From assembly GCA_964058805.1 (NCBI GenBank), contig CAXKVV010000246.1, positions 1 through 64,000 of the forward strand: DNA of 64,000 bases. The letters are read 5' to 3'. The translations under genes were made by a program, and so were the position numbers. How positions within the stretch are numbered: the first letter of the stretch is position 1; each line of letters begins with the position of its first letter. The stretch is from Schoenoplectus triqueter (taxonomy: Eukaryota > Streptophyta > Magnoliopsida > Poales > Cyperaceae). The notes under the pieces were generated by a model that did no database searches, was not told where the DNA came from, and saw only the letters and a list, made by a program, of their open reading frames with translations. Shown here one piece after another: positions 5,075 to 64,000 of this stretch.

Positions 5075-7393
5075 ATGGATGATGCATTGATGAGCTATTC
5101 TGCAATTCGTCAGATTTCACAGTTTCTTGGAGCAATAGTGTTCTTCCACGTGTCAGAATACCTCCTCGCCATCTTCTTCCATGGTCGCTCCAATGTCTCA
5201 TGTTCATGTCAGAATTCTTTTCCTCTATACATGCTATAGTTTGCTACTATTGTTTGGTACCGACTTTTTTGTTGCAAGCTGATAAAGTTGCCTTATAATC
5301 TGAGAATTTAGTACTCCATTAATCAAACCTAGGTTTGATTTAATGATTGAATTAGGATAAATTTAACTTAAAACGAGCTCGACTTAAGAACTAAAATCTG
5401 GTGTTATTTACTATATTGGTTATATACTTTAATCATGCCGAAATTTTAGACAATGAGCTTATAGATTGAGTAAAGCCACTGTATCTTTGAACAAACAAGC
5501 AGAAGAATGCCTTTTTATTAAAAAAAAAACAGATACATATTTGTGAAAGATTCATGTGAAAACCCAAGAATATTAAAAAAGAAACAAAAAATAAACTGGT
5601 ACCAGATCTCAACTTGAACACACATGCTTCCTAGACCAGATTCTTAACCCTGACAGTAATTGTTTTAACACAGAAGAGCCCTCAACCATATGTACCAAGG
5701 ATGTCTTTTGGCACTCCTATCCAAATAAACATAAACCAGTTAGCAACCACTAGGTACTCACAGATTCACATCCACAAAGTAGCGCAATCTCATGAACCAA
5801 TCTAAGCTGTGCATTCATTTTGCAAGGCTCAGGCCCGTACCTGAGACTGTTTAAGCTGCAGGTAATTTTGATTGAGCTTACATTAAGCAACTAATCTGGC
5901 TTCGCATTATGCAGAAATTATGTTCTTTTCTCAATTTTACTGCACTAAATATATTCTTTGGATCTAACAAACTGAACTCATGTACTGCTCAAAATACAGT
6001 CACTCTTTCTGAACTTGACATGACATATTGCACCTAGGTAATATTAATTGAATGATTATCTTTTATTGTAACACCCATATAGAGATGAAATCTAGTGAGG
6101 GTTTGTACTCTGAAAGTGTGAATTAATAAATTTTACCTCTGATGTTACTGCAGCATTTCTAATTAGCAAACATTATGCTATAGCTATGGGTTTTGCACTA
6201 GTCGAATATATAGTGGAAATAACTCTCTTCCCACAATGGAAGGAGATTTGGTTCATTTCCAGTTGTGGTCTTTTAATGATATTAATTGGAGAAGTGATTC
6301 GAAAGTCCGCGATTGTGACAGCAGGACGTTCGTTTACTCACTTGATCAGAATTTATTATGAAGAACAGCATGTGCTTATTACACATGGAATTTATAGGTA
6401 ATTAGTTATTGGTGTATTTTAGTTCAGTGTGTTGTTACCTTACCTGATTTGATACAATTATTAGATCAAACATGCAAGTATTCATGTCCTACAAGTCAAG
6501 GAATTTATATGGACGACACTATTCCATTTTTTAAAGAAAACAACATATCAGTCTAGGTCGAGACTGAAACTTTTGTCATGCATGGAACTTTTACCGGGCA
6601 CAAGTTTGTCCAGTTAATCTTGATGTATGTCCTTTGGTTGGGTTATCATTTTGGTAACATAGTGTTAATTTACATGTATCAGTTGAAGCTCTTCTGTCCC
6701 CTAGTTAGCATGTTAGTACTGTACAGTTAGAAGAACCATTACCAAAATAAGAGATGAATATCCAAATAATTTACATTTAAATTATATGCACACACTTTCT
6801 AATGACAGCATGTTAACAATTGCATTGTACAGTATAATGAGGCATCCAAGTTATTGTGGATTCTTTATATGGGCAATTGGGACTCAGGTCATGCTTTGCA
6901 ATCCAATTTCTGTAGTTGGTTTTGTGTTAGCTTTATGGCACTTCTTCTCCAAGCGAATACCGTATCCTAAGATTTTGTATCAGTATATGATGTAAAATAA
7001 CTAGCACAGCACACTGAGCTCCATAGAACAAATAGAATTCCTGCTCAACTTTTGTGTGATGCTGTTGTGAAACTTTTATTGAGTTCAACTGTTTCAGCAT
7101 ATGTTCTGTTGAAAACAACCCCTGAGTAAGCACTACCAGAAAAGCATTGAAACAAAAGTTCAAATTAAAACTAACTAAAAACTAGGTTGTTGAACAAAAT
7201 CACAAAACTAACAATATGAATGATGGTTATGTAGAATTCAGGTACAGGCAATCCAAATTATGGTTTAATACTTGGTTTTAGTTAATCTTTAACAGAAAAC
7301 AGATATGAGGAATTTTTCTTGAGACAGTTCTTTGGACGTGACTACATAGAATACTCAAGAAAAGTGCCTTCTGGTCTTCCCTTCATCAAATGA
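5075..7393 (+). CDS. ICMT: Isoprenylcysteine carboxyl methyltransferase (ICMT/STE14 type)
   Basis: ICMT methylates the C-terminal prenylcysteine of CaaX proteins with S-adenosylmethionine at the ER membrane. Four exons join in phase: 5075-5207, 6154-6397, 6833-6961 and 7303-7393, each with GT-AG borders, giving 198 aa (plant ICMT is about 197). Hydrophobic helices are visible at residues 17-35 and in the segment after SSFLISKHYA (from about 45). The conserved C-terminal half contains GRSFTHLI, then IMRHPSY (127-133), GTQVMLCNPIS, RIPYEE (167-172) and QFFGRDYIEYSRKVPSG, matching the family's SAM- and substrate-binding core. ATG 5075 was chosen because it aligns with the family N-terminus; the in-frame codon at 4985 would add 30 residues with no family match. 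No frameshift or lost motif is seen. Its 3' end faces the RING gene. Confidence 0.93.
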
Positions 7394-34700: not shown

Positions 34701-37700
34701 GTAATTAGTTAGACTGTTATAATTATAGATAGATTAGTTAGTTTAGTTATAGGACAAGCTGTAATAGCATTTCTATAATAGAATAAGATGAAAACAATTT
34801 ACAAACAAATTATCTTTCTCTGTCTTAATCTTTACATGATATCAGTCTCAAGATTAGTCAATAATGTCTTCAACTCCAGACCTTGTCTCCACTGACACCG
34901 CCACCACCCCCAATTCTACCGACACCACCACCTTCTCTAGCATCGATCCAACTATCTCTCTAACCCTTCTAGTGAATATCAAGCTTAACGAATCAATTTT
35001 TTTGACATGAAAATCGCAAATTCTACTATTAATCTACGGATATGATCTTTCTAAGTTTCTTGAATCATCTTCACTAGATAAAACTCGTCATACTTCTTCT
35101 GGTCAGATCGAACTCAACCCTTCTTATCTTTCTTGACGTCGACAAGATCAAATCTTGCTAGGATGGCTTCGCTCCTCCCTAACCGAACCTCTTCTAGCTC
35201 AAGTAATTTTCAGTGCCTCAGCAAAGGACTTTTGGATAGCTCTCGAAGATTATTTTTCTTCTACTTCTCGTGCTTGACTCAACGATCTGAAGCGATAGAT
35301 TCAGACAACTCAAAAAGACAATCTCTCTTGCTCTGGGTATATTTTCACCTCAGGCATGTCGCTGATGAACTGGCCTTCATCGGTTCTCCCATTCCCGAAG
35401 AGGATCTTGTCACAACTATAATTAATGGTCTCGGGACAGAATACAACTCGATTGTCGCTGCTCTCGCCACTGCCAGATGTCATGGTGTCTTCTCCTTCTC
35501 CGATCTTCGAGGTCTTCTTCTCAGCCACAAAGCCTTGCTCAAAACACAAACTATCTCGATCTCGACAACCTTTTACACGAGGAGAGGAGACAGGTCTCAA
35601 TATCGACAATCTTCTTATTCACATCCCCCTTCTCAGCTTCGGCCTAGGGAATCTACATTTGATTTTTTTTATTCTTCCACCAAGCCGCCTACTAGATCTT
35701 TTTTGGGCTATATTTCCACACCGAATGGGTCTTTCCTCGGATCTAATACTTCACATTCAGCTCTGACTCTCAGCCTATTTGCCAGATTTGTTCAAAAATT
35801 AGTCATAGTGCCAAATTATGCTTTAGGAGATATGATAAGGATAATGAATGGAAACTAAACCCAAGGTTTAAAGCATATAATGTGCAAGTTCTCCCTCAAA
35901 ACAATGACTTAACAAATTAGGTTATTGACTCGGGTGCCAATAATCATGTTATAAGTGATTTTAATAATATTTTCTCTTTTTTTGTCTATAATGGTCCCGA
36001 TAAACTTTAAATAGACAATGATATTGGTCTCTCCATCTCTCATATTAGTTCAAGTTCATTTTCAACATCAAATCACTCTATTCATCTAACTAATATGCTT
36101 CATGTACCCAAATTCTCTAATAATCTTATAAGTCTATCACAATTACTTCATGATAATCCATCTCTTTCTATTAACTTTTATCTTCTTCTTTTTTTGTACA
36201 ATTAAGGACCTCCACATTAAGATCACTCTTCTTTAAATATCTAGCTCTAATGGTCTTTATTCTTTTAAGATTTTTCTTCTCAAGTTTTTCTTGGTACTTG
36301 TACCAACTATTATTATTTGGCATGCAAGACTTGACCATCATTCCAACAACACTACAATAAAAATTATACACTCTTATAGTTTATCTTGTATTAGAGATAA
36401 TCTTTCTTGTCATGATTGTATACAAGCTAAACCTCGTGTTTTGCCTTTTTCTTCTTCTTTTTCTTCATTTTCTTTCTTTCCCTTATAATTAGTGCACTCT
36501 GATGTATGAGGATCATCCCCTATTATATCTTCTCATGGATATAGATATTATATTAACTTTTTTATGACTATTTTCATTTTACTTGAATTTATTTTATGAA
36601 ACACAAAAGTAAAGTTTGTGACATATTCTCTCTTTTTAAATCTCAAGTAGAAAACCTTCTAAACACAACTATTAAAACTTTACGAACCGATGGAGAAACC
36701 GAATATAAGCCTATAACTACCAAATTCTCACATCTTGTTCATCAAAGTACATGCCTCTATACTCCCCAACAAAAAGAAGTAGCTGAACGAAAACATAAAC
36801 ACATAGTTGAGCTCTCTCTTGTTACTATGTCTCATACATCCATGCCTCAAAAATATTGAGACGAAATATTTTCGAGTATAATATTTCTTATCAATAGCCT
36901 ACCTTCTCAAGACCTCATTCCCTACAAAACTTTGTTCCACAAAGAACCCGACTATAATATGCTATGTGTCTTAGGGTGTCTTTGTTTTCCTTTAACCCAC
37001 CCACATAACAAACACAATTAGATTTACGATAACAACCTTATGTTTTCATTGGCTATGACATCTCTCAAAAAGGTTATAAGTATTTACATCTCCCCTCAAA
37101 TAAAATCTTTATATCTAGGAATGTACAATTTGATGAACTAACATTTCCATTCAAGGACTTTTTTATTGCAAATCAGGGGACAACAAATGTGTTGCCCTCA
37201 TTTAACTTCCTACAACTTGACCTTCTTCAGCCTACATCAGCACCAGGCTCGCTTCATTCCTCCAACAATACTATTTCGACTTCTCCCTCAGCTTCATTCA
37301 ATTCGGACGACCATCTTCCTGCTTCATCATTGCCATCTGATCACCCAGCCCAACAAGTTCTTGAACAAGGCTCTATTGTTTCGGCCACATTCCTCGACAT
37401 TTTACCCTCTCTCATCTTATCTGATCCACCTGTCTCTAACGATCGGCATACTACATCTTCTTCGCCTCCACCAGACCACCACTTCTCTCTACCAACCACA
37501 CACTATTTTAATCGACCTCAGCCTTCATCTCTCTCATTGCTCTCTCATTCTCTTAACTCTCACCCAATGACTATCAGATCCAAAGATAACACCCGTACAG
37601 AAAAATCATTTGCAGACTTTGTTGCTCACCTTACAACCACCAAAACCGACCCTGTCACCTTTCTTCAGGCCAAAAAATCACCTCATTGGCGTGAGGCCAT

Positions 37701-40700
37701 GGCTTCTAAACTCAATGCTTTAGCCACCAATAACACCTGAACCTTGGTGTCTTCTCCGGCTGATCAAAAGGTCATCGGGTGTAAATGGGTCTATAAGACA
37801 AAATGAAAAGCTGATGACACCATTAATCGGTACAAAGCCCGTATGGTAGCTAAAGGGTTTAATCAAGAAGCATGTGTTGATTATGAAGAAACTTATAGCC
37901 CCATTGTTCGAGCTACTACAATTCGAGTCATTCTTTCTCTCGTCGTTTTCTCTCTCTGGCCGATCAAACAACTCAATGTTTTCAATGCTTTCTTGAATGA
38001 AGACTTATCCGAAAGGGTTTATATGGATCAACCTCCGGGTCTGCTAGACTCCATCCATCCAGACTTTGTTTGTCTTCTCCACAAATCGCTTTATGGCCTT
38101 AAATAGACACCACGAGCATGGTTTACCAAATTAAGCACCACCTTGCTTGATATTGGTTTTAAAGCATCTTATTATGATCATTCACTCTTCCGTTCTCATC
38201 ATCAAGGACACATTCTTCTACTTTTGATTTATGTCAATGATATTATTGTTATAGAAAGTGATCCTAGTCAAATCAATCAATGCATTGCTAAATTACATCA
38301 TCACTTCTCCATTTGAGACTTAAGTGATGTTCATTATTTTTTGGGCATTTAAGCAATAGTCAACAACATGGGATTATATCTCACGCAAATCAAATATCTC
38401 ACAAACTTGCTTACGCGTTCCAATATGATGCACTACAAACCTTGTTTATCTCCTATGGCCTCCGGCACGGTACTCACACCAGCGGATAGCCCACCTTGCT
38501 CAAATGCACAATTATATCATAGTGTGATTGATATAGTGTGGTTGATATTCTCCAATATGCCACGCTAACAAGGCTCGACATTACCTACTTGGTCAACAAG
38601 GTTTCCCATTACATGCACCAACCTAATGAAGATCATTGGAGTGTCGTCAAGAGGATTCATTGTTATATATCGGGTACTTTAACCTCTGGCCTTCAATTTC
38701 ACATCAATTCTCCTCCGCAGATTTACGCCTACAACGATACCGATTGGGCCAGTAGTATTGAGGATAGGAGATTCACTTCTGGTTTTTGTGTCTTTCTTGG
38801 TCGCAATCTTGTGTCTTGGTGCGCCAAGAAACAACCGACGGTTTCCCAATCTAGCACCGAAACTGAGTATCATAATTTAGCACTAGCTTGCACGGAAGTC
38901 ATGTGGCTCCAATATCTTCTCAAATAAATTCAAGTTCCCACCAAGCAGCCGCCCACTTTGTGGTGTGACAACATAAGTGCCACTTTTCTTGCTTCCAATC
39001 TCATGTTTCATGCTCGTGCCAAATATATCGAGATTGACTATCACTTAGTTCGTGAGAGAGTAGTTTCTAATAAGCTAAAGGTTCAGTTTATTTGTTCAGC
39101 CGATTAGCTAGCCGATATAATGACCAAGCCTTTGTCACTTCCTCAGTTGCAACATCTCTGAAGCAAGCTCAATGTGATAGTCCTCCCATTGGCTTGAGGG
39201 GGTGTATTGAGGTATCACATACTGCTACAGACAATTCGCTTGATTAACTAGTAATTAGTTAGATTGTTACAATTATAGATATATTAATTAGTTACAGGAC
39301 AAGCTATAATAGTGTTTCTATATATAGCATTGTACAAGCTATGAATGGAATAAGATGAAAACAATTTACAAACAAATTATCTTCCTCTATCTTAATCTTT
39401 ACATTCGTAGATAGAATAGATCATCACCCCATAGATATTGATGATAAAAAGAAAACCAACCAACAAAATTTACAGTTCAACTAGATAATTAACACTATTT
39501 GTTAGGTAGGAATGAACATTTTAGGATAAACTAACAAATTATCATTTTAGGATAAATTTAGCTACAAACTGCTCTGTAAGAAGTATAACAAAGGCTGATT
39601 TTTTTGGAAGCAACTAGAAAGTGCGGTTTTAGATTAAAAAAAAGTATGGCAAGTAAGGGGCCAATGTCCTTTTTTATCATGACAACTTTTTTTTAAAGAT
39701 ATTAATTGAACTCCTTAAATTGTGAGGATAATTCTATTATTTACCCATAACGAGAATACATGTCTTTGAATTGCTCATAACATAATATTAATATATATTG
39801 ATGTATGATATAGTATTTGAACTTAATATTGTATGGATCTGCCACTGATGGGACACGAACAGTAAAGCATATCTACACTGCAAAATGGAGTACAACAAAT
39901 TATTTTTATATAGTTCTGAAGGTGCCAATGAAATCATAATAATTCTATAATATTTTAATTATGCCGAAATTAATTTATAAATATTTTAGACTAAAAAACC
40001 AACAATGAAGAGAATTTATGGTATTAATTAATAATGTTCAGATAATAAAATTCATCTCACAGATCAACTATTTCTTTTTCATTTTTCTTTTAGTACGTAA
40101 GTGAAACCAGCTCTGATATTGAATAATTGGAGTCGGACTTCAAAAAGGAACTAAAGTCTTGCAAACCTTAATTCTGAACGTAGCTTTAAAGTACAATATC
40201 AAAATTAAATCTACTCCAAAACAGAACTATAATTTAATAATTCTAATTAAGGTCACGCCCAACTAGTTCAATCAATGAAATTCAAGCATCGAACGCAGGC
40301 AATAGTAAATGCAAGCGTCTAATAATTGAAAAGGAGAAGCTATATGTCGGCCTCTTCTTGCTATTATTGAGTTACTATTCAATGCATTTTCAGTGGGAAA
40401 TATATAATTTTGATTATTATTAATTTTTAGATAAAGATGAAGTTTAAATTATCCAACTTTAAATACATATATATATATAAACAATCCTCATTTTATTTGG
40501 ATGTTGAACGTGTGGTTTCTCTTAAGAAGAATATTTTCTTTATCACTAGATCAGAAGATTGATTCCCATAATCTTATTTATTAATATGGAGATTTCACCA
40601 TGTGATAATATGAAAGTTCAGGAAATATTATAATTGGCCTTTCAACTTATGAACAATTTTAAGAAAAAAATTACTTTTTTCCCCAACGCACAAATCAATG

Positions 40701-53500: not shown

Positions 53501-55171
53501 TTCTAAAAATAGACTAGTTTTACTTTAATTATGATTTCATTTATATAATAATAATCATAATAATTAATATTTTGACGAAACATGTCAAACTTTTTGAACG
53601 TATAATTTCCCATGTTACATGTTTACTATCGAATGTGTGCAGACAAGCACACTCCAATAAAACACTGCCAAACAAACATGAACGTATAATTTCAGAATTA
53701 TTACAACATGAAATTATATATCCGATAACTACGAGGAGCTTGCAGGAATTGTACCCATTTTTTTGTATTGTATTCACTCGGATTCGCTGGAATAAAGGCT
53801 CTAACATGTTCAGCAATTAATGCTAGTAGTAGAACCAACATTCTTTTTCTACACTCCAAAAAATAAAAATTTACAATCTTTCTTTAGAGTATGCAATATA
53901 TAATAGACCTTATATAAAACACTCAAAAGAAAAAACTTTTGCAATATTTTTTTTAATTATGCAATATATAACAGACCTTATATAAAAGTAGTGTTTTTAG
54001 ATTTAAAATTTCATTTAAATTACTAAAGTATTTTGTTATAATATTCTTTTAGGAAATATAAATCTAATATAAATAACTTTCATTAGATTCAACAGAAATG
54101 TAATGTACATTTTAGTTTTAAAATCATTCAATTAATATGAAACTAATATAATCCACATTCTACAAATATGGTTTTAGTTCAACTTAAAAACAATAGTAGC
54201 ATAAATTAACATACTAATTTGGATATAGATAAAAAAATTGAACATTCTAAATAATATAAATTTTATTAACAAATATCATTTTTTATTTATCCATCATCTT
54301 GCAAATAAGTATGCAACAAAAAATTTGTTATGAATTAAGATTCAAAAAATACATTAAAAAAATAGAGTAAAATATGAACTCAATATTGAAATGTAGAATA
54401 CTAAGAGATTGACATGATGAGCACACCATACTCACAAGTGCAACTAGCTAAGTCGAGCTAAGCAAAGCTCAAGGTTAGTTCGCTAAGCAAATAAGTTGAG
54501 CTAGCTCATTAAACATTTTAATTTCGAGTCAAAATATTTGAATTGAGATCATTCATTAAATTAACAAGCTAACTGAATTAGCTCATTAAGCCTCATTTAA
54601 TAGTTAATAATAAATTTTTATCATTATTTGTATCAAAATTTATACAAAAATTAATGAAATCCCTAATAATAATATATTTCACTCAAATTTGATATATATA
54701 TATATATATGACAATAATAATTTAGTATATATCATACTATAAACTATTTACTATACTAAAAATTCATAATAGAATAATATAAATAATAAATATTAATAGT
54801 TTATCGAGTCAAATGAGACAAATAAGCCGAGTCCATCCAAACTTAAGTTTGGCTCATTACTTAATGATCTTGACGAGCTGATTCGTTAACAACTTAGTCC
54901 ATTAACAGATGAACCAATAGTGAGTTGATCCCAAACCGTTCCATGAATCTTTTTGTCAGCTCTAGATGCAAGATCTAAATTGTAGAACAGGTTCATTTAC
55001 AAGTAACGAACAGTATTCAAAATGAATTGCCACGTATTTGTGGGGGTTAGGCATCTCGACGCGTTATAAGAAGGAATTATAATTGGGATGAGAACAACTA
55101 CCAACCCAGATATTTCTCAAATCTCTCAGTCTCACCTTAAGCAAAGCAAAGAAGAAACATTTAAGTATTAA
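53501..55171. other. Intergenic upstream of the AIFM2-like gene
   Basis: Includes a direct repeat of TATGCAATATATAA..AGACCTTATATAAAA (about 53890 and 53955), and a block rich in GAGCTA/AGCTCA words (about 54440-54960) that resembles the 180-793 element but lacks clear ends. The last 150 bases are the presumed promoter, with a CCACGTA motif near 55030 and a TTATAAGAAGG box near 55065. Confidence 0.4.
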
Positions 55172-57486
55172 ATGGGGGAAGCTGGAAAAGGAACCAAGAA
55201 CGTGGTGGTGATAGGAGGCGGCGTGGGCGGGTCACTTCTTGCCAAGTCGCTTCAGTTTGATTCAAACCTAGCGCTTATTGATCCGTATGGTTTTTTTTTT
55301 CAAAATCCACTTCCGTTTCTTTGATAGATTGTTTAAATTCATGGTTTGGATTGTCAACGGTGCTTAATTTCCTCTCTGCTTTGATCAATTTTTGAGGTTT
55401 TGTTTCCCCCTTAATTTGGTGAAATTCAATCCTTCTATTTTCTATCTCTGCTTCGTATGGACAGGCTGGAATGAGGGTTTTAGGGGTTTGTTAATAGTTA
55501 TGGAAGTTTGAAATATAAGCCATTGAAAGTTCATAATTGCGACTTTTTGTTGAGAAAAAAAAACATAACTGAAGTTTTGTCCAACAACCTTTTTCCAATA
55601 TTATTTCCTGAAGTTTATTTAGTATTCCATTTTTTTCTATGTTTTGCTAAATAAGTAAATATTATTCTACTATCAAGTATCAACTATTCACTGGAAACTA
55701 AAACAATTACCAATTATTTGTTGGGTGTCAATGCAGACGAGTGAATTCTACCTTCCTGGTCCAAACTGAAATCCAGCTTATTACAATTATTGAGTATTGA
55801 CAGAATATTCTTTTATTCATTATAATTCATCTCCAGCTTCGATAATTAACGGAGATGTCATTTTCTGCAAAAGTACCAATAAAAATTGTGTATTTTAGGT
55901 TCTTGACGCCTTATATGAATTTACTGACTTGGGATTGCTTTCTTGTTATTTCATTAAACAGAAAAGATTATTTTGACATACCATGGACGGATCTCCGGTC
56001 GATGGTGGAGCCCACATTTGCTGAGAAAGCACTCATTAAACACTCAGAGTACCTCAGCAACGGCACAACCATCATTTCATGTGCAATTGATATTACAGCA
56101 ACTGAGGTGTTAACTGATGAAGGTCGTGCTGTGCCGTATGATTTTCTTGTTGTGGCTACTGGTCACAACGAGGCCATTCCCAAAACCAAAACCGAGAGAC
56201 TCGAGCAGTTTAAAAAAGGTACTTCCATATATTGAATCTAACTTACCTATAAGTGTTACTTAGATTCGATTTGGATGTTATGATATTGTTTGATAGTTAA
56301 TTCACCCGACCATATTAAAATGTTTCCTCTTAAAGCAAGTTGTATTCCTTCTAATAAAGGAAAGCTTGTTAGGTGCCAGGTCATTTGCATAATTACTCTT
56401 CCAATTTGCTCTAATAGAAATGCCCCTTAAACTTCACCTGCATGGCTGTATATGATGAATAATATTTCAATTTTTTTTGTAAAAAGATTAGTCAGAATGT
56501 TAATTTTTTTTGTTCTAATTTCACTTGCATATGCTTTAAACAGATCAAGATAAGATAAAATCTGCAAGTTCAATCCTGATTATCGGAGGCGGCCCCACGG
56601 GAGTCGAATTAGCTGGGGAGATCGTAACTGACTTCCCTGATAAAAAGGTTACTTTGGTTCACAAAGGACCGCGGTTGCTTGAATTCATTGGTATGAAGGC
56701 CTCCACAAAGGCCATGAAATGGCTGAAGTCAAAGAAAGTGGAGGTGCTTCTGGAACAAACCATAGACCTAGACTCTATTTCAGAGAGTTCCTGTGAATTC
56801 ACGACATCGACTGGTACAACTATCACAGCAGATTGTCACTTTGTTACCATAGGAAAGCCGCTTAGTTCGGGTTGGATGAGAGAAACTATATTGAAGGATA
56901 GCTTAGATGAACGTGGTAGATTGAAGGTGGATGATAAATTAAGGGTTAAAGGTCATGACAAAATTTTTGCCATTGGAGATATTACTGATGTTAAGGTATG
57001 ATCTCAAGTATTTTTGCCATTGGAGATATGATCTCAAGTATTTTTTATCATAGAAGAACATGTTTAAAACTCAAAAAAAATTAAAGCAATCCAACTAAGA
57101 GCAATCGTATTTTTTATTGACATTAAGTATATACATATAGTAGTATCTTTAATGATAACTAAACAAAAAAGGAAGAATTGCATACATGAAACTATTATTA
57201 ACTGATCTTGGGGAATTTGATTTGAGAGCAGGAACTAAAACAAGGATACCTAGCTCAAGCACACGCCACAGTGGTTGCCAAGAACATAAAATTGCTAATA
57301 AAGGGAGAGGACTCAAGCTTAGCTGCTTACAAGCCGAGTTCTGCATTGGCAATTGTTTCCTTGGGGCGCAAAAGTGCAGTCGCTCAATTCCCATTCATGA
57401 CCATTTCAGGCTGCTTCCCCGGCATGATCAAGTCTAAGGACCTGTTTCTAGGTAAAACCAGAAAACTCATGGGTGTAGACCCTTAA
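55172..57486 (+). CDS. FAD/NAD(P)H-dependent oxidoreductase, AIFM2/FSP1-like
   Basis: Four exons, 55172-55284, 55962-56218, 56544-56995 and 57232-57486, join in frame with GT-AG borders and give 358 aa. Animal AIFM2/FSP1 reduces quinones with NAD(P)H; plant relatives are annotated as AIF-homologous FAD oxidoreductases, and the substrate here is unknown. The FAD-binding Rossmann motif is VVVIGGGVGG (G15-x-G17-x2-G20), the NAD(P)H motif is IIGGGPTGVE (G138-G140...G143, E145), and the second FAD contact is the ..FAIGDI.. motif (G268-D269). DYFDIPWTDLRSMVEP follows the first beta-alpha-beta unit. The start was chosen because it directly precedes the Rossmann strand, as in the family. G2 is present, but K6 makes N-myristoylation unlikely. 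No transmembrane segment is evident. No break was found. Confidence 0.93.
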
Positions 57487-58495
57487 AATTTTCCGTAGTA
57501 CACGATGCTTGAATTTGTGTTGTATGTATTTTGCACTTGATATTTGTGTGTGATGTGTGTAAATATAATATGCTTTTGGATGCATCTCTGTTTTACGAGT
57601 TTAATTTTGCTAGTTTTCTGTTGTTTGGAGATAAGAGCATGTGTTACACTACATTTTAAGTCTATTGTGTTATTGGTTGTAAGTTGGTATTGGGAAATAC
57701 TTCTCCTTTATTTATTGAATTTGATTAAAATAAACTTGATAAAATATATAGCATTTTTTTCGTAAAACTAATTAATTGCCACAATACAAATATTCATTAT
57801 GTTATATTATTGTATTGTATCATATATTGTATTGTATCATATGATATCGTATGGTATAGTATCGTATCGTAGTGTTTTGTTATTTATATTTTGAATCCAA
57901 AGAGTTGATCCATATATATAATACAAAAACAAAATTACGCTAATGTATGGACCTAAAGAAAAATATCTTGGGAGTTAATTTATAAGAGCTGCGTTAGTTT
58001 TAAGAGAGGTATATTTTGTATTAATTAATAGCTTCTCTGACGTAGTAGAGGAGGACGTAATTGAGACAGAGGGACTTCATACTAGAGGAGAAAATAAGAA
58101 AGATAATCATGCGTTCCTCTACTTGATTGAAATAAAATAAAAATTAAGGATTTACTTGAACTAGAGAGATTAATTGATGAATAGACATAGTTTTCTATAT
58201 AAGATTTTATAATCATATTTATAATATTTTTTGCTGGTTGATATACCCAATTTATGTACATATTTTTTTCTGTTCTTCTTATTTCGATATAGATTAATTA
58301 CTTTGTTCAATATATTCCTATACTTATATAACATTTTTTTCACTAGTTTGAGACCCATATTAAATTATATTTCAATCGCAAATGAATTTTTAGTAATTAC
58401 TAATTTTACGTTCAGAAGTCATATTTTTTTTCTAATAATATGTGAACCACTATTTGCAAAGAGATAAAATTTTCATTTTTTTAATTTCGTTGAAT
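57487..58495. other. 3' UTR and intergenic sequence
   Basis: The first about 250 bases are the likely 3' UTR of the AIFM2-like gene. A degenerate TATTGTATCATA/ATCGTATCG repeat lies at about 57805-57875. No gene is recognised in the remainder. Confidence 0.45.
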
Positions 58496-58511
58496 ACATT
58501 ATCAATCACTT

Positions 58512-59016
58512 TTTTTTGAAAAAAGTGGAATATATCCACTAGTTTCATTGAAACTGAGAGCCTACAATATCCATAGCCCGATACGATACTAAACATATGA
58601 TACCTAAATCAGATTTACATTGTTCATAAAACTAAAACCACTACACCACACATACATCATCGGAGAGTGCTAATCATCAAAAGAGCACAAAAACAACCTA
58701 GCAACACAGAAGAACTGAGTTTTGATCAACTACGATAAAGAAACAAAAGCTACAAAGATAAATTGTTTAGGGTAACATAAGAGTCATTAATCTCTCTTTC
58801 AGACAAAGGAATTTCCATAACTACTTGGGTAACCTCCTGTTCCCTCACTGATATTTTCTCTACCCCTCTTCCTTTGACAGCCCCACGGCTAAATCCTGAA
58901 CGTGCAGAGAGAGAGCTTCCACGTCCTGTGGCAAAATAATCGATAAGTGCAACAAAGTAGCTTTGTCTTTATTTTCACATCAATATCGAGCCGGACTAAT
59001 AATTTGCATTCCTATC
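58512..59016 (-). mobile_element. Retroposed insertion, probably 5'-truncated LINE (505 bp)
   Basis: A 16-bp perfect direct repeat, ACATTATCAATCACTT, flanks the insert (58496-58511 and 59017-59032). Read on the minus strand the insert ends in a short A-run beside the duplication, the signature of target-primed reverse transcription. An open minus-strand frame (about 58945 to a stop near 58755) contains GRGSSLSARSGFSRGAVKGR and VREQEVTQVVMEIPLSERE. Gly/Arg-rich tails occur after the zinc knuckle of plant L1 ORF1, but no reverse transcriptase is present, so a retroposed host transcript remains possible. Confidence 0.65.
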
Positions 59017-59069
59017 ACATTATCAATCACTTAACTTACACTTTTAAATATATATTACAAGAAATAGAC

Positions 59070-59395
59070 ATATTTTCACAATATAATAATATAAAAGAAC
59101 ATATTATTTAACTTCAATTGATGATGTGTTTTAAATTTTATGCATCTAAAAGACGTTTGATATTTTATCAATGATCTAGAGTCTTAGACCATTCAAATTC
59201 ATTAAATTTTAGTGATCATCGATAAAGTATCAAATGACATTTAACTACATGAAATTTTAAAACAATACATGAAATTTTAAAACAATAAATCAATAGTTCA
59301 ATAATATTTCTACAAAGATCTTTTATTGTCTGAATTTATTTGAAAACCAAATGTCAAGATTGTTAAAATAATCATTCAAGTGATTTTTCCCCTCT
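59070..59395. mobile_element. Inverted-repeat MITE, family B, copy 3 (decayed)
   Basis: The right end CATTCAAGTGATTTTTCCCC is the inverse of the GGGGATCACTTG left end of copy 2. It has inner inverted blocks (TTTGATATTTTATCAATGAT and ATCATCGATAAAGTATCAAA) and the GTTTTAAATTTTATG segment. A 21-bp tandem copy ACATGAAATTTTAAAACAAT lies near 59248-59288. The outer left end is uncertain. Confidence 0.5.
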
Positions 59396-60090
59396 TACTT
59401 TTTAAAATACTAATTGTTTGATATAGTTTATTTTATGATTTATGTTTGCATTGAGATATAAAATAAGTCTTTGATATTCTGTATTTCTGCAACAAAGTAG
59501 TACTTAAAAAAATATAGATTAAATTATATATTATTCAAAATATTAATAAAAATTACATACGGTCTTTCATCATTTTTATGAGAATGAATTGTACATTGTC
59601 CTATTCGGGAAAAATACTGTTCACAAAATGTTTGCTTTTGGGAAAAAAATCGAATAAGAGTTTTATTGTATGATATGTCATGCAATTATTACTTATTTTT
59701 CAGACTATATTATATATTTCATAATGGTGCTAACCATCACTTATCATATATTAAAAAGAGTAAATTTGTCATAAAATTATAATTTCTCATATTTTTATTG
59801 TTTTTTAATTCATGTAATTGGTAAATTTACCATGTGATATTATAAATGCATGTGAATTTATAATGAGATGCTAGAGAAAATAAATTAATTATTTGTCCAT
59901 CAGCGTCTAGCCATAAATTAAGAAATATACAATTAGAGAAACAACAATTATGAAATCGATATGGTCTTTCGGCAGTGTGGCGTTTATTTTTCTTTCACTA
60001 TTGTAGTTATTGTGTATATTTTCTTTGTTCTCTAGATTCATGTAGTCTTTTCTTTTGGATTTTTTTAGTTTTTTTTTTTTGAGAAAAAAA
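59396..60090. other. Intergenic, no gene seen
   Basis: AT-rich sequence with T-runs near 60061-60080. No reading frame or repeat with readable ends was found. Confidence 0.4.
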
Positions 60091-60326
60091 TGTGGATGGA
60101 TTTTGATATAACGAGAGAGAGAATGAGAGAGAACAATCTTTTGATTATCTTGGAGTTAATTGATTATAATGTCTAAATCTCTATTTATAGGCTAATGATT
60201 TAACAAATTAACCATTTAATTTAACTAACTAATCATATTGCTAAACATCTCTCATATCATAGCTCTCACAATATCTTCTATACAATTCTACTAATCTCAA
60301 TCTATACTCTAACATCCCCTCTCAAA
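60091..60326 (-). mobile_element. LTR fragment with polypurine tract (copia-like, minus strand)
   Basis: Read on the minus strand, TTTGAGAGGGGA (60326-60315) is a polypurine tract directly followed by TGTTAGAGTATAGATTGAGA, an LTR start, continuing through TATAAATAGAGATTTAGACA to a CA end near 60104 or 60091. This is the 3' end of an LTR retrotransposon whose body would lie to the right (60327 on), on the same strand as the fused gene fragments. The left flank gives no clear target duplication. Confidence 0.6.
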
Positions 60327-60758
60327 CTCATCGTGCGGTACGCATGATGAGTTTGCACATCTCACGAGTTCTAATATCTCGATTCATGAATTTGATCTCC
60401 AATTGCATCATGGGTCTTCTTGAAGGAAGATAGAAGAAAGAAGAGTTTTTTTAGCTCAAGAAAAACTATAGATTGTTTCATACTCGTTTGAGTCATTTTG
60501 AAACATCAAATAGAAGATTTTTTGTCATTTTTAACAACAATTTGAGACTTGTTTGAGTTCTCTTGAAAGAAAAGAAAAAATGAATAGAAACCCGATGCAT
60601 GGTTTGATCATTAAAAATTTAATTGGGAATAAAGGTTAGGTTAGAAATTATAGGAAAAATTTAAAGAATTGAAGATGAAATTAGATTTGGAAGAGTTTAG
60701 GACAGCCTCGGCAACATTCTCCTCTGCTCTTGATTTTTGGAGTTGTCTCTTTCTTTGC
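60327..60758 (-). other. Sequence between LTR fragment and fused gene fragments
   Basis: The first 100 bases (CTCAAACTCATCGTGCGG on) look like the 3' internal end of a copia element. The rest is AT-rich with no clear frame until CAGCCTCGGCAACATTCTCC near 60703, where composition changes towards the gene fragments. Confidence 0.35.
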
Positions 60759-60961
60759 CTAAGCCGCAGCTTTTGGCTTCAGAGCAGTAGCCTTCTTTGG
60801 CTTGACAAGAGACAGCTTGGCTTTGGGCTTAGCTGCTGGTTTGGATTTGGTTTTAGCATCTACCTTGACTTTGGATGGTGAAATCACATATTTTGTAACA
60901 TTTCCCTTTAGTTTCATGCTAGCCTTTGGCTTAGTGGTTTGGCAGGTATAAATTTTGGTTT
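60759..60961 (-). pseudogene. Lys/Pro/Ala-rich fragment resembling a histone H1 tail (copy 1)
   Basis: A minus-strand frame reads TKPKASMKLKGNVTKYVISP, then KSKPAAKPKAK, KPKKATALKPKAAA and a stop at 60761-60759. Repeated K-P-A-K motifs without other sequence types are typical of linker-histone C-terminal tails. It abuts the CutA fragment (KPKFIPAKP continues the CutA frame) with a one-base shift inside the join. Another Lys-rich nuclear protein is possible. Confidence 0.45.
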
Positions 60962-61294
60962 AACACAGGTTGCAAGTTTTTCCTTGACAATGCTCTCAGA
61001 AAGTTTTTTATCCGCCTCTCTGTTAGGAACGGTAACATAGACAACAATAGAAGGAACCGTGGTGGAAGAAGTATCTATTCCAGTCGAGTGAAGATCTCCT
61101 TTCCTGAAGGCAATGGTAGAGAGAGCACCGATGCTGAGCACGCGCAGAGCCCGGACAAATGGAGATCGGCGGTGCAGTAGCGAGACTGGAGAGGAAGTAG
61201 AAGCTTCGCGAGACCCAGCGGAGGAGGAGAGAGGCGCTAGCGAATTGCTTGCACCCCTTGAAATTGTGCGCTTCCAGAAGCTTCCTAACGACAC
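60962..61294 (-). pseudogene. CUTA: CutA 5' fragment fused to other gene pieces (copy 1)
   Basis: On the minus strand the frame has a Ser/Arg-rich, transit-peptide-like stretch (SREASTSSPVSLLHRRSPF), then STTVPSIVVYVTVPNREADK and KLSESIVKEKLATCV. This is the start of the CutA domain, a trimeric protein found in plastids and associated with divalent metal tolerance. It stops at about the point where the native protein continues NIVPG; the core beta-alpha-beta fold and C-terminus are missing. No in-frame ATG remains near the fragment start. The break after CV may be an exon border of the donor gene. Confidence 0.78.
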
Positions 61295-61329
61295 CGATCC
61301 AGTGTATGCTTCCTATCAACGGGGCCCAC

Positions 61330-61517
61330 CAGCGCTGCCTTCTGCTTTTGAGAAATGACGGTCAAAACCCTAGCGATCGACAGCCTCACCACCTTAATCT
61401 TCAATAGCTTGGTCGGGACAACGCCATTGACTTTAGCAACGTGGAGGAGAGAGAGCTATGCCTTGATATCGTGAGCTGGGCGAGCAACTCCTGCTTTGTC
61501 TTGTCCCTCAGTTCGTG
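61330..61517 (-). pseudogene. RPL35: Ribosomal protein L35 (uL29) fragment
   Basis: Minus-strand translation gives HELRDKTKQELLAQL, then after a one-base frameshift [29 protein letters not shown] and ISQKQKAAL. This matches about 60 residues of cytosolic 60S protein L35 (123 aa), from near its N-terminus to the middle helix. A GAG codon has become TAG. The fragment is joined on its 3' side, after about 30 unassigned bases, to the CutA fragment, so it is not a working gene. No intron interrupts it. Confidence 0.82.
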
Positions 61518-61700
61518 CTTGTTTGTCTTAGAAGAATCGAACAGGAGATAGCCAGTTGATTCACGCCAGTTGATGCGTAAGAAATCGTCGGCTAAAGAGA
61601 GGAGAGAAAAAGCGAGAAATTGATTTCTTTATCCTTTCTTGATCTTGATCTTGATTGAAAAAAAATGCGATCAGATTGTTTCCTGATCAGTGGAGAAGCA
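61518..61700 (-). other. Leader-like sequence upstream of the fused fragments
   Basis: On the minus strand it reads CTCGCTTTTTCTCTCCTCTC and CAATCAAGATCAAGATCAAG, resembling a pyrimidine-rich 5' leader or a short repeat. It could be captured 5' UTR or donor-gene intron. Origin not determined. Confidence 0.3.
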
Positions 61701-61705
61701 GAGAG
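61701..61705. repeat. Left target-site duplication of the compact LTR element
   Basis: GAGAG here is repeated at 63382-63386 directly after the right LTR. The motif is simple, but its position at both LTR edges supports it. Confidence 0.65.
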
Positions 61706-62171
61706 TGTTGAAATATAAACTTAATTTTAGTATTAAAGTTAAATAAATTAGGAAATAAAGGGAGACTCTTTGGCTTCAGCGCTTTGGCAGAATTTTAAGG
61801 CTGATTAATGACAGCATTTGAAGGGGCAAATGGACGTGGAATTTAGTGTATGACCTATGGATGGAAAGCTATTGAAGTCTAGTTTCCAATGGTTTAAATT
61901 TTAAGTCATTTGGAGTTTTCTACAGAAATTTATGGCGATTTTAGTGAAATGGTATCAGCTGAAAGGGTGCTGTTTAGAATTCTGTTTTTATTATATGTTT
62001 TTATTACGAATTTTAAGAGTATGTCTAAGGCTATAAATAGACTTGTATTCTGTTATATGCAAGTAATAGAGAAGAGAAAAAGTGTAAGAGAAATAGAAGA
62101 TATAGTTTGAATAGAAAGATATTTCAGAATTGTTCTCTCTTCCTTCCACCGAGATATATCATATTATAACA
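61706..62171 (+). repeat. 5' LTR of the compact LTR element (466 bp)
   Basis: It starts TGTTGAAATATAAACTTAAT and ends ATATTATAACA (TG..CA). The first 250 bases match 62953 onward closely; the second half is more diverged, with indels. Confidence 0.85.
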
Positions 62172-62174
62172 AAG

Positions 62175-62187
62175 TGGTATCAGAGCC
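62175..62187 (+). promoter_or_regulatory. Primer-binding site (tRNA-Met type)
   Basis: TGGTATCAGAGCC lies three bases after the 5' LTR. It is the usual initiator-methionine tRNA primer site of plant copia and related elements, here unmutated. Confidence 0.9.
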
Positions 62188-62940
62188 AGGTTCAGTCGAT
62201 CAAGAAAGACCTGTCATGGCGAAAAAAAAGAAGAAGAAAAAGAAAAAAAAGAGATGTTGAAGAAAAAAATATGGTGAGTCTCGATTTTTATTTTAAAGAA
62301 AGTTAAGTGTTAAGAATATTTTCTGAGTTTATTTTAGTATATGAGTTTTTCTGTGTTGTTAGGAGCATTGAAAAAAAAATTAAATCTCCTTATTTTATTT
62401 TTTATGAGAAAAGAAAAAGTGTCGGAAAAATATCATGTGTTAAAAAAGAGGAGAAAAAAAGAGTGGAGATAGTTTTAGAGGAAAAAAAAAGAAAATTTGT
62501 CAATGATGAGAGTTATGTATCAAGCAGCGAATGTTACAAAAGCGTGGTGAAGTTTTTGCCAGTGGTCTTCGAAGAATCGGTGAGTGAAGCCGACATGAGC
62601 AATGATTCATGATAGTCTGTGCAATGAGTGCCAGGATAAGAGAACTAGCAACATTATGAGATGTTTTGCTGGAAGTGTGTGAAGACCATGAGAAGATGTG
62701 GTGTGGTGCCACATGGAAAAAAATACGGTGTGGAGCCGCGGTGTGGGTGTGAATCTCACATATACATGACCTGAAGAGTCAGACAAATTGGATGGCATAT
62801 GAGATGAAACCACGATTGATTTTTTGAATTTCCTATATCAATAAATCGAGAAGAAGCCGTCAATGAGTGACGTCGCTATTCGCTGTGAGTTATAAAAAAA
62901 TTCAATGATGATTGGCATGAAGGATGAAAAAGAAATTAAG
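62188..62940 (+). other. Interior of the compact LTR element, non-coding
   Basis: A 101-codon frame (62307-62612) is rich in Lys, Glu and Phe and shows no gag zinc knuckle or pol motif. A GAAGAATCGG/GTGTGGAGCC region (62560-62800) has mixed composition but no recognisable protein. It is probably remnant or filler from deletion of an autonomous element. Confidence 0.5.
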
Positions 62941-62952
62941 TTTAATAGGGGG

Positions 62953-63381
62953 TGTTGAAATATAAACTTAATTTTAGTATTAAAGTTAAATAAATTAGGA
63001 AATAAAGGGAGACTATTTTGCTTCAGCACTTTTGCAGAATTTTAAGGCTGATTAATGACAGCATTTGAAGGGGCAAATGGACGTGGAATTTAGTGTATGA
63101 CCTATGGATGGAAAGCTATTGAAGTCTATTCCAATGGTTCAAATATCAAGTCATTTGGAGTTCCCTACATAGAGTTATGGTGATTTTAGTGAAAGGGTAT
63201 CAGCTGAAATGGTGCTGTTTAGAATTCTGTTATTATTATATTTTTTTATTATGAATTTCTAGAGTTTTCTCAAATGTTTAGGCTATATAAAAAGTTATAT
63301 TTTGTTGTTTTGTAAGCAAGAAAGATACAAGGGTGTCTAATAGAAAGAAATCTTAGTTTATCCATCCCTTCGCTTTTAACA
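62953..63381 (+). repeat. 3' LTR of the compact LTR element (429 bp)
   Basis: It begins TGTTGAAATATAAACTTAAT right after the purine tract and ends CGCTTTTAACA. It is about 37 bp shorter than the left copy and differs mostly in its last 150 bases. Confidence 0.82.
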
Positions 63382-63541
63382 GAGAGGAAGAGAGAAATAA
63401 GAAGAGTAGAATAGAGAGTTTCTGCTGAGAATAGATTAAGAATAAAAGGGATTTATACTGAAATAGCTAAGAAAAGTAGTATAATTTCTGAAATAGAGGC
63501 TGGATAAGGTGCATAATGTCTGAAATAGATGTGAGTCTAAT
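63382..63541. other. Spacer between the LTR element and the second fused block
   Basis: Begins with the GAGAG duplication. AGA-rich sequence with CTGAAATAG repeated three times. It does not match the sequence beside copy 1, so it marks the edge of the duplicated block. Confidence 0.4.
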
Positions 63542-63740
63542 TCCGCAGCTTTTGGTTTCAGAGCAGTAGCCTTCTTTGGCTTGGCAAGAGACATCTTGGC
63601 TTTGGGCTTAGCTGCTGGTTTGGATTTGGTTTTAGCATCTACCTTGGCTTTGGATGGTGAAATCACATATTTTGTAACATTTTCCTTTAGTTTCATGCTG
63701 GTCTTTGGCTTAGTGGTTTGGCAGGTATAAATTTTGGTTT
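63542..63740 (-). pseudogene. Histone H1 tail-like fragment (copy 2)
   Basis: A near copy of 60762-60961: MKLKENVTKYVISPSKAKVD, KSKPAAKPKAK, KPKKATALKPKAA. The match stops exactly at CCGCAGC (63542-63548); beyond it the frame continues into unrelated sequence (ELDSHLF..), unlike copy 1, which ends in a stop. Confidence 0.45.
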
Positions 63741-64000
63741 AACACAGGTTGCAAGTTTTTCCTTGACAATGCTCTCAGAAAGTTTCTTACCCGCCTCTTT
63801 ATTAGGAATGGTAACATAGACAATAATAAAAGGAACCGTGGTGGAAGAAGTATCCATTCTAGTCGAGTGAAGAGCTCCTTTCCTGAAGGCAATGGTAGAG
63901 AGAGCACCGATGTTGAGCACGCACAGAGCTCGGACAAATGGAGATCGGCGGTGCAGTAGCGAGACTGGAGAGGAAGTAGAAGCTTCGTGAGACCCAGCGG
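63741..64000 (-). pseudogene. CUTA: CutA 5' fragment (copy 2), cut by the window end
   Basis: On the minus strand it contains SSTTVPFIIVYVTIPNKEAG and KKLSESIVKEKLATCV, then the same KPKFIPAKP join as copy 1. About one base in twenty differs from copy 1 by eye. The transit-peptide-like start and any RPL35 part would lie beyond 64000. Confidence 0.72.

Follow-up and report, generated by a model that had tools for sequence, protein, structure and literature searches.

Schoenoplectus triqueter, a sedge, probably harbors a family of small non-autonomous LTR retrotransposons whose ends stay constant and whose middle has been remade again and again, in part at least out of spliced host mRNAs. The parts that would be held constant are the LTR, the primer-binding site (PBS) with its leader, a 3' module, and the polypurine tract (PPT). 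Our entry point is one copy, called the carrier, whose cargo joins pieces of four host genes. The carrier has its 3' end in the window, by which we mean the whole 64,000-nucleotide stretch that was analyzed (positions 1 to 64,000 of contig CAXKVV010000246.1, here C241, of assembly GCA_964058805.1), and extends beyond its right edge. Other contigs of the assembly are named in the same way.

The carrier and its four-gene cargo

The carrier possesses the ends of an LTR retrotransposon: two direct LTRs of ~210 bp with TG...CA termini, the 5-bp TSD GATTT on both sides, a PBS, and a PPT (Table 1). The 5' LTR lies at C241:64674-64882, 0.7 kb beyond the window, and is followed by a PBS-like TGGTATCAGA and then by divergent bases; the tRNA assignment of the carrier and family PBS is presumptive. 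The LTR pair is 89.0% identical by global alignment and 90.9% identical in a comparison of 13 copies. The captured sequence is flanked by the PBS and the PPT and has the same sense as the element. The carrier measures 4.8 kb and has no pol; sister copies measure ~1.5-2.3 kb. We consider the element non-autonomous because the Pfam matches of 20 family cargos, described below, include no gag or pol. The four-gene block is the cargo of this non-autonomous LTR retrotransposon.

A preliminary sequence-only reading had pointed to an LTR end and polypurine tract at 60091-60326, which are indeed the 3' end of the carrier. It had offered a Pack-type DNA element, a Helitron, and retro-capture as possible vehicles, favoring an LTR retrotransposon, and the direct LTRs, the GATTT TSD, the PBS, and the PPT bear out that choice. 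Direct repeats form the ends, in place of the terminal inverted repeats that mark DNA transposons; a search for inverted repeats of at least 40 bp found none in 55000-64000, a span beyond which the carrier's right end lies.

Minus-strand positions 61518-60721 hold, in order, pieces of the genes for RPL35, a J-domain protein, CutA, and a histone H1 tail. The same reading had named RPL35, CutA, and an H1-like tail, all of which are present on that strand and in that order. It overlooked the J-domain piece at 61338-61241, between RPL35 and CutA, so its three-gene fusion is a four-gene one. It also overlooked the tandem duplication, in which a second copy of the whole block (94%) starts at 63543 and continues beyond the window, as well as the nested element and the variable cargo of the family.

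Donors for three of the pieces are separate genes on three contigs. Specifically, the RPL35 piece, ~60 codons long, is 77% and 88% identical in DNA to the two exons of its C638 donor, and the corresponding profile, PF00831, scores above cut-off in both cargo units on C241. The C1137 donor of the J-domain piece has a DnaJ domain match under the curated cut-off and, by protein comparison, is closest to Carex rostrata (76%), then Rhynchospora pubera (66%), which accords with a sedge host. The C800 donor is an open linker histone H1 gene. The CutA assignment comes from protein and profile comparisons: the ORF holding the CutA piece aligns with Carex rostrata CutA at 68% identity across 70% of the query (E 1e-27), and unit B gives a CutA1 profile match with E 4e-4 and 20.4 bits, under the 22.4-bit cut-off. 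A DNA search of the assembly (82.09 Mb, 2086 contigs) found no CutA donor, and the Pfam CutA1 profile (PF03091) gave no match over the whole genome, the window's own short piece being likewise under threshold. In Carex rostrata, CutA and the J-domain protein occur as two distinct proteins. Thus, the pieces do not belong to one conserved host gene. Rfam returned 0 matches on the window and donor loci. Elsewhere in the window, an ORF at 56540-57001 resembles, by eye, a pyridine-nucleotide oxidoreductase exon.

Table 1. Features of the carrier, its cargo units, and the nested element in the window.
Feature	Position	Strand	Remarks
TSD GATTT	60099..60103	.	Read directly; partner copy at C241:64883-64887, outside window
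3' LTR of carrier (TGTTAGAG...TATATCA)	60104..60314	-	~90% to 5' LTR C241:64674-64882
Polypurine tract (GAGTTTGAGAGGGGA)	60315..60329	-	Read directly; sister copies have a similar tract
Conserved 3' untranslated module, common to family	60315..60698	-	Sister copies match at mostly 78-88%
Cargo unit A, linker histone H1 tail	60721..60959	-	91% over 240 bp to C800 gene (L010:4634-4872), E 9e-93
Cargo unit A, CutA N-terminal part	~60962..61228	-	Passes the point where a genomic-looking relative leaves CutA
Cargo unit A, J-domain protein N-terminus	61241..61338	-	80-81% over ~99 bp to donor C1137 (L009:4863-4961)
Cargo unit A, RPL35 fragment	61339..61518	-	Two exons joined at ~61396; donor C638 (L008:4944-5066 + 5167-5223); PF00831
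Cargo unit A, upstream part of duplicated block	61519..61705	-	Within 94% match to unit B
Nested-element TSD GAGAG, left	61701..61705	.	Read directly
Nested TRIM-like element, 5' LTR	61706..62171	+	Differs from its 3' LTR at 40/413 sites
Nested-element PBS (TGGTATCAGAGCCAGG)	62175..62190	+	Read from sequence
Nested-element purine-rich tract before 3' LTR	62940..62952	+	Read from sequence
Nested TRIM-like element, 3' LTR	62953..63381	+	Differs from its 5' LTR at 40/413 sites
Nested-element TSD GAGAG, right	63382..63386	.	Read directly
Unit A leader module, repeating the post-PBS leader	63387..63548	-	94% to C241:64485-64654
Cargo unit B (H1, CutA, edge of J-domain side in window; rest to C241:64491)	63543..64000	-	94% match to unit A

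Tandem units and a nested element

Between the carrier LTRs, a unit of leader plus cargo occurs twice: unit A at 60764-61705 with its leader at 63387-63548, and unit B at 63543-64491 with its leader to 64654. An LTR element with full anatomy, 61706-63381, is inserted in unit A; its PBS, TGGTATCAGAGCCAGG, presumably matches initiator Met tRNA. Twelve other copies of the nested element, 1.6-1.75 kb long, are 82-89% alike over nearly its whole length, and so its interior is mostly constant. Further relatives match on either side of query positions ~565-773 and have another middle between.

The two units differ at 56/1104 sites (5.1%), the outer LTRs at 23/209 (11.0%), and the nested LTRs at 40/413 (9.7%), with a Fisher p of ~0.002 for the units against each LTR pair. 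By these counts, the duplication looks younger than the nested insertion that interrupts one unit. Candidate explanations for this mismatch in age are gene conversion affecting the units, allelic recombination, and a higher rate of decay in the LTRs.

Spliced origin of the RPL35 piece and possibly of CutA

The donor RPL35 gene has an intron of ~100 bp (GTACGC...GTGTAG) that is precisely absent from both cargo units, where the exons are joined exactly. Because the donor intron is exactly missing, the captured RPL35 sequence was spliced. The initial impression that the block shows no introns is thus right where examined, and the donor alignment, which distinguishes cDNA from DNA capture, favors cDNA for RPL35, the one gene covered by the donor-intron test at the DNA level. 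The CutA segment of the element reads ...SIGALSTIAFRKG-DLHSTG..., that is, ...IAFRKG straight into ...LHS. At that point, two Carex rostrata CutA isoforms have 10 and 19 extra residues, and a genomic-looking relative, P0078, departs from CutA into unrelated residues, as an unspliced intron would. This arrangement is consistent with, and is not proof of, a spliced CutA piece.

The joins themselves carry short matches. Specifically, GAAG is present in both donors at the join of RPL35 and the J-domain piece, where the element has one extra G, and the two units join at GG in the contexts CTGCGG and CTGCTGG. Such matches form the pattern expected of template switching, a suggestion drawn from only two joins, read by eye.

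A family with constant ends

Copies with shared ends, for which the sequence-only reading had proposed a search of the assembly, are present. The carrier ends match at least 49 loci, C241 included, a count obtained by clustering 42 DNA matches to the 5' query and 53 to the 3' query (40/84 and 40/93 candidates scored). Both queries contain the LTR, and hence a match to both, as at 21 loci, is no proof of both ends. Contigs C156/C938 and C657/C1982 give mirror-image matches. Since mirrored contigs suggest that both haplotypes are kept as separate contigs in this 82-Mb assembly, copy counts may include alleles.

Fifteen copies, among them C241, C156, C353, C421, and C316, have LTR matches at both ends together with the leader and the 3' module, and their LTR, leader, and 3' modules are ~70-90% alike. 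In another set of 15 copies, C241 again included, TSDs read by eye are exact over 5 bp in three (C241, C1179, and C1615), agree at 4/5 bases in C1248, C42, C1475, and C272, and are not readable in eight. The family PBS TGGTATCAGAGC is present in 6/15 copies of the latter set; near variants occur in seven, including C241, and none was seen in two.

The LTR pairs of 13 copies are 86.1-99.5% identical. Insertions therefore seem to range from old to recent, with the window's element in the older half. Pairs at 98-100% occur in C1179, C349, C583, C597, C1955, C316, C528, and C766. For 7/13 copies, an LTR resembles an LTR from a different copy more than it does its own partner. A simple history in which LTRs are identical at insertion would not predict this pattern, which suggests recombination or age. 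A sub-family comprising L062 (C1955:9.1-11.2 kb), L067, L068, and L069 has LTR pairs at 98-100%, a differently built 3' part, and the youngest-looking insertions.

Copia-type reverse transcriptase candidates are numerous in the genome. In an RVT_2 search for an autonomous partner, with 150/1074 candidates scored, none was seen by eye between the LTRs of a known family member. The C156 copy, whose ends lie 8.5 kb apart, was considered for that role and set aside: its interior consists of a Serinc cargo and a nested element on the opposite strand. Specifically, C156:1717-10258 (L033/L074/L072) shows the Serinc cargo interrupted by an opposite-strand element with ORFs that, named by eye, are Ty3-like. 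In the window itself, ORFs at 35082-37740 resemble, by eye, pieces of copia-type retroelements.

Host-gene pieces in sister copies

Twenty cargos were compared, a set that leaves aside C597 (a near-duplicate of C583) and C277 (too short). Several copies have partial anatomy: C376, C1208, and C140 have no 3' module within the stretch examined, C691 has no 5' end, C1248 and C52 have no leader match, and C151 has no 3' LTR. Recognized host-gene pieces, mostly from different genes, occur in 10 of the cargos and in none of the other 10.

The Pfam-recognized pieces lie in sense. At E 0.01, Pfam finds 10 host families in the 60 sense frames of the 20 cargos (Serinc, PRA1, NDUFB7, HSBP1, L29 [RPL35], Glrx-like, Skp1, L25p, CutA1, and TFIIF-alpha) and 0 families in the 60 antisense frames. 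Counted per cargo, 9/20 have a sense match at E 0.01 or better, and 7/20 have one above the curated cut-off. PDB searches add NDUFS7 in C272, which brings the total to 10/20, and ABCE1 as a second gene in C42; both were initially chosen by eye among the sense ORFs and are uninformative on strand bias. Two of the ten counted cargos, C1615 with TFIIF-alpha and C251 with L25p, have matches under the Pfam cut-off and, because the C1615 frame drew 0 matches in PDB, TFIIF-alpha in that copy rests on one sub-cut-off Pfam match. Three further cargos, scanned in sense frames only, hold Myb and bromodomain pieces (C353), NDUFB7 (C766), and a weak bromodomain match (C421); the scan of C1339 covered one frame. 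The Myb-like/bromodomain cargo of C353 (L060) and C421 (L061) may derive from one plant gene having both domains. A BSD domain picked by eye in the C1208 cargo was dropped when Pfam gave no confirmation.

Searches of the assembly for donors of the C42, C1179, and C1615 cargos matched only other family members, and a protein search found no donor for the Serinc cargo of C156. The assembly looks incomplete.

Cargo also moves and is exchanged. C583 and C597 have cargos that are 99.4% alike, with similarity ending at the element borders on both sides; because they share cargo but not flanks, the loaded element has moved. Apart from this pair, cargo middles share mostly short stretches, the longest ~180 bp, and some cargo modules are common to copies with different LTRs. 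C349 and C1955 share 1066 bp at 98.2%, flanked by a leader side at 91% and by LTR and 3' ends at ~70-80%. An NDUFB7 piece of 68-103 bp is 97-99% alike between C1179 and each of C766, C316, and C528, and C353 and C421 have cargo in common at ~81%. To judge from these alignments, cargo is sometimes inherited and sometimes set in a different frame, and is not new in every copy.

A model of repeated capture

The notion is that element RNA and host mRNAs would be packaged together in the particles of an autonomous partner, both the packaging and the identity of the partner being our inference. Reverse transcriptase could then jump between RNAs at short matches, as the joins suggest, and the joined cDNA, completed with the PBS and PPT that the element itself supplies, would be integrated. 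In the C241 copy, four mRNAs, those for RPL35, the J-domain protein, CutA, and H1, would have been joined in this manner. Subsequently, the leader-plus-cargo unit would have been tandemly duplicated, and another LTR element would have entered one unit. A stronger version, to which we assign even chances, envisions a "Pack-LTR" message collector: the ends serve as a docking frame, the interior is rebuilt from one copy to the next out of spliced mRNAs, and recombination among packaged RNAs passes finished modules from one LTR type to another.

Sense, intron-less pieces could likewise arise by read-through transduction, in which an element beside host genes is transcribed into its neighbors and takes spliced sequence along; a review classes maize Bs1 and an Arabidopsis TRIM in this way (PMC13317346). 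We nonetheless judge this route unlikely for the sedge family. Several rounds of transduction would be needed to gather four genes, three of which sit on separate contigs; the cargo is enclosed by leader and 3' module instead of lying beyond an LTR; and sister copies carry different genes.

Comparably improbable is the idea that the fused block is a working chimeric gene under selection, here or in relatives, with the element merely its vehicle. This possibility gains from separate JGI proteins. The protein encoded by the CutA-holding ORF has 240 matches, of which 120 were listed and 12 of those were examined; among these 12, five JGI clusters hold parts of the chimera: P0057 (RPL35 to CutA), and P0058, P0059, P0073, and P0074 (CutA to H1). 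P0057 keeps the frame from RPL35 to CutA open across 165 aa, and CutA and H1 share one open frame in P0073 (132 aa) and P0074 (126 aa). The smaller divergence of the two units relative to the LTRs also fits selection. In both units of the window, however, the CutA-to-H1 frame is shifted, and in unit A the H1 piece contains a stop. The chimera also matters for annotation: for pieces of this kind, JGI records use the names "ribosomal protein L29" and "CutA1 divalent ion tolerance protein."

Capture of genomic pieces at the DNA level, whether by gap repair, a Pack-type DNA transposon, or a Helitron, is common for Pack-type elements. Here we regard it as very improbable: the precisely missing intron contradicts it for RPL35, the sense-antisense count of 10 Pfam families versus 0 in the same 20 cargos speaks against it, and so do direct LTRs with a 5-bp TSD. 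Finally, assembly chimerism or contamination, conceivable in a draft of 2086 contigs and named as a possible refutation in the sequence-only reading, has a negligible chance of being correct, because parts of the chimera recur in separate JGI sequences, the joins are identical in two units, and the TSDs match.

Relation to known systems

The sequence-only reading knew of no described element with its trio of genes. We found none with the present set in the open-licence literature, although the kind of event is known from Bs1 and soybean TRIMs. Bs1 of maize is an LTR element with segments of three host genes that led to a chimeric gene (PMC13317346), and it is termed exon-only in PMC4717578. 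As portrayed there, Bs1 holds one gene set, whereas the sedge family carries different genes per copy, four in C241, where the cargo unit is doubled. Template switching is described for Veju and BARE elements (PMC13317346). TRIMs of soybean and Medicago, such as GmaRetroS15, are 1,172-1,449 bp long, carry exon-only fragments, in one case from three genes, and have 5-bp TSDs (Gao et al. 2016, PMC4717578). According to that paper, gene fragments occur in 30 TRIM elements from 7/289 subfamilies, and all but two had at least two copies. LTRs of ~210 bp and the lack of pol would suit a TRIM, but the gene-carrying TRIMs of that paper, at 1.2-1.4 kb, are shorter than the carrier (4.8 kb) and its sister copies; relative to the TRIMs as described there, the sedge family differs in that cargo changes in most copies examined and modules cross LTR types.

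LTR-captured host genes are reported in rice and sorghum (PMC3726574), as is NLR retroduplication by LTR retrotransposons in pepper (PMC5664825). These surveys span many families and, as far as consulted, do not mention any one family that combines constant ends with a variable interior. In the literature consulted, gene capture by small LTR elements likewise appears as isolated elements or in a minor fraction of subfamilies. In the open-licence literature, we found no description of an LTR family with constant ends and different host cargo in most copies. The mechanism class, exon capture by LTR elements and TRIMs, is known; what looks new is a family with a changing interior.

A variable-cargo family would reveal the rate at which a plant reverse transcriptase takes up host mRNA, the sites at which it switches, and the birth and spread of chimeric frames. 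Because a single genome would offer numerous natural joins, one could measure directly how templates are chosen with respect to abundance, microhomology, and polarity.

The nearest parallel in behavior is provided by Pack-MULEs, in which numerous copies of one kind of element enclose differing host-gene fragments within constant ends. Pack-MULEs have been compared with TRIMs, as DNA transposons that capture exons and introns (PMC4717578). They are a functional analogue only, as the sedge family has LTRs and, where examined, spliced sequence. If the "Pack-LTR" proposal is correct, the family would be an RNA-level counterpart of Pack-MULEs, with some of its own copies moved recently, and would keep yielding new chimeric frames such as CutA-H1.
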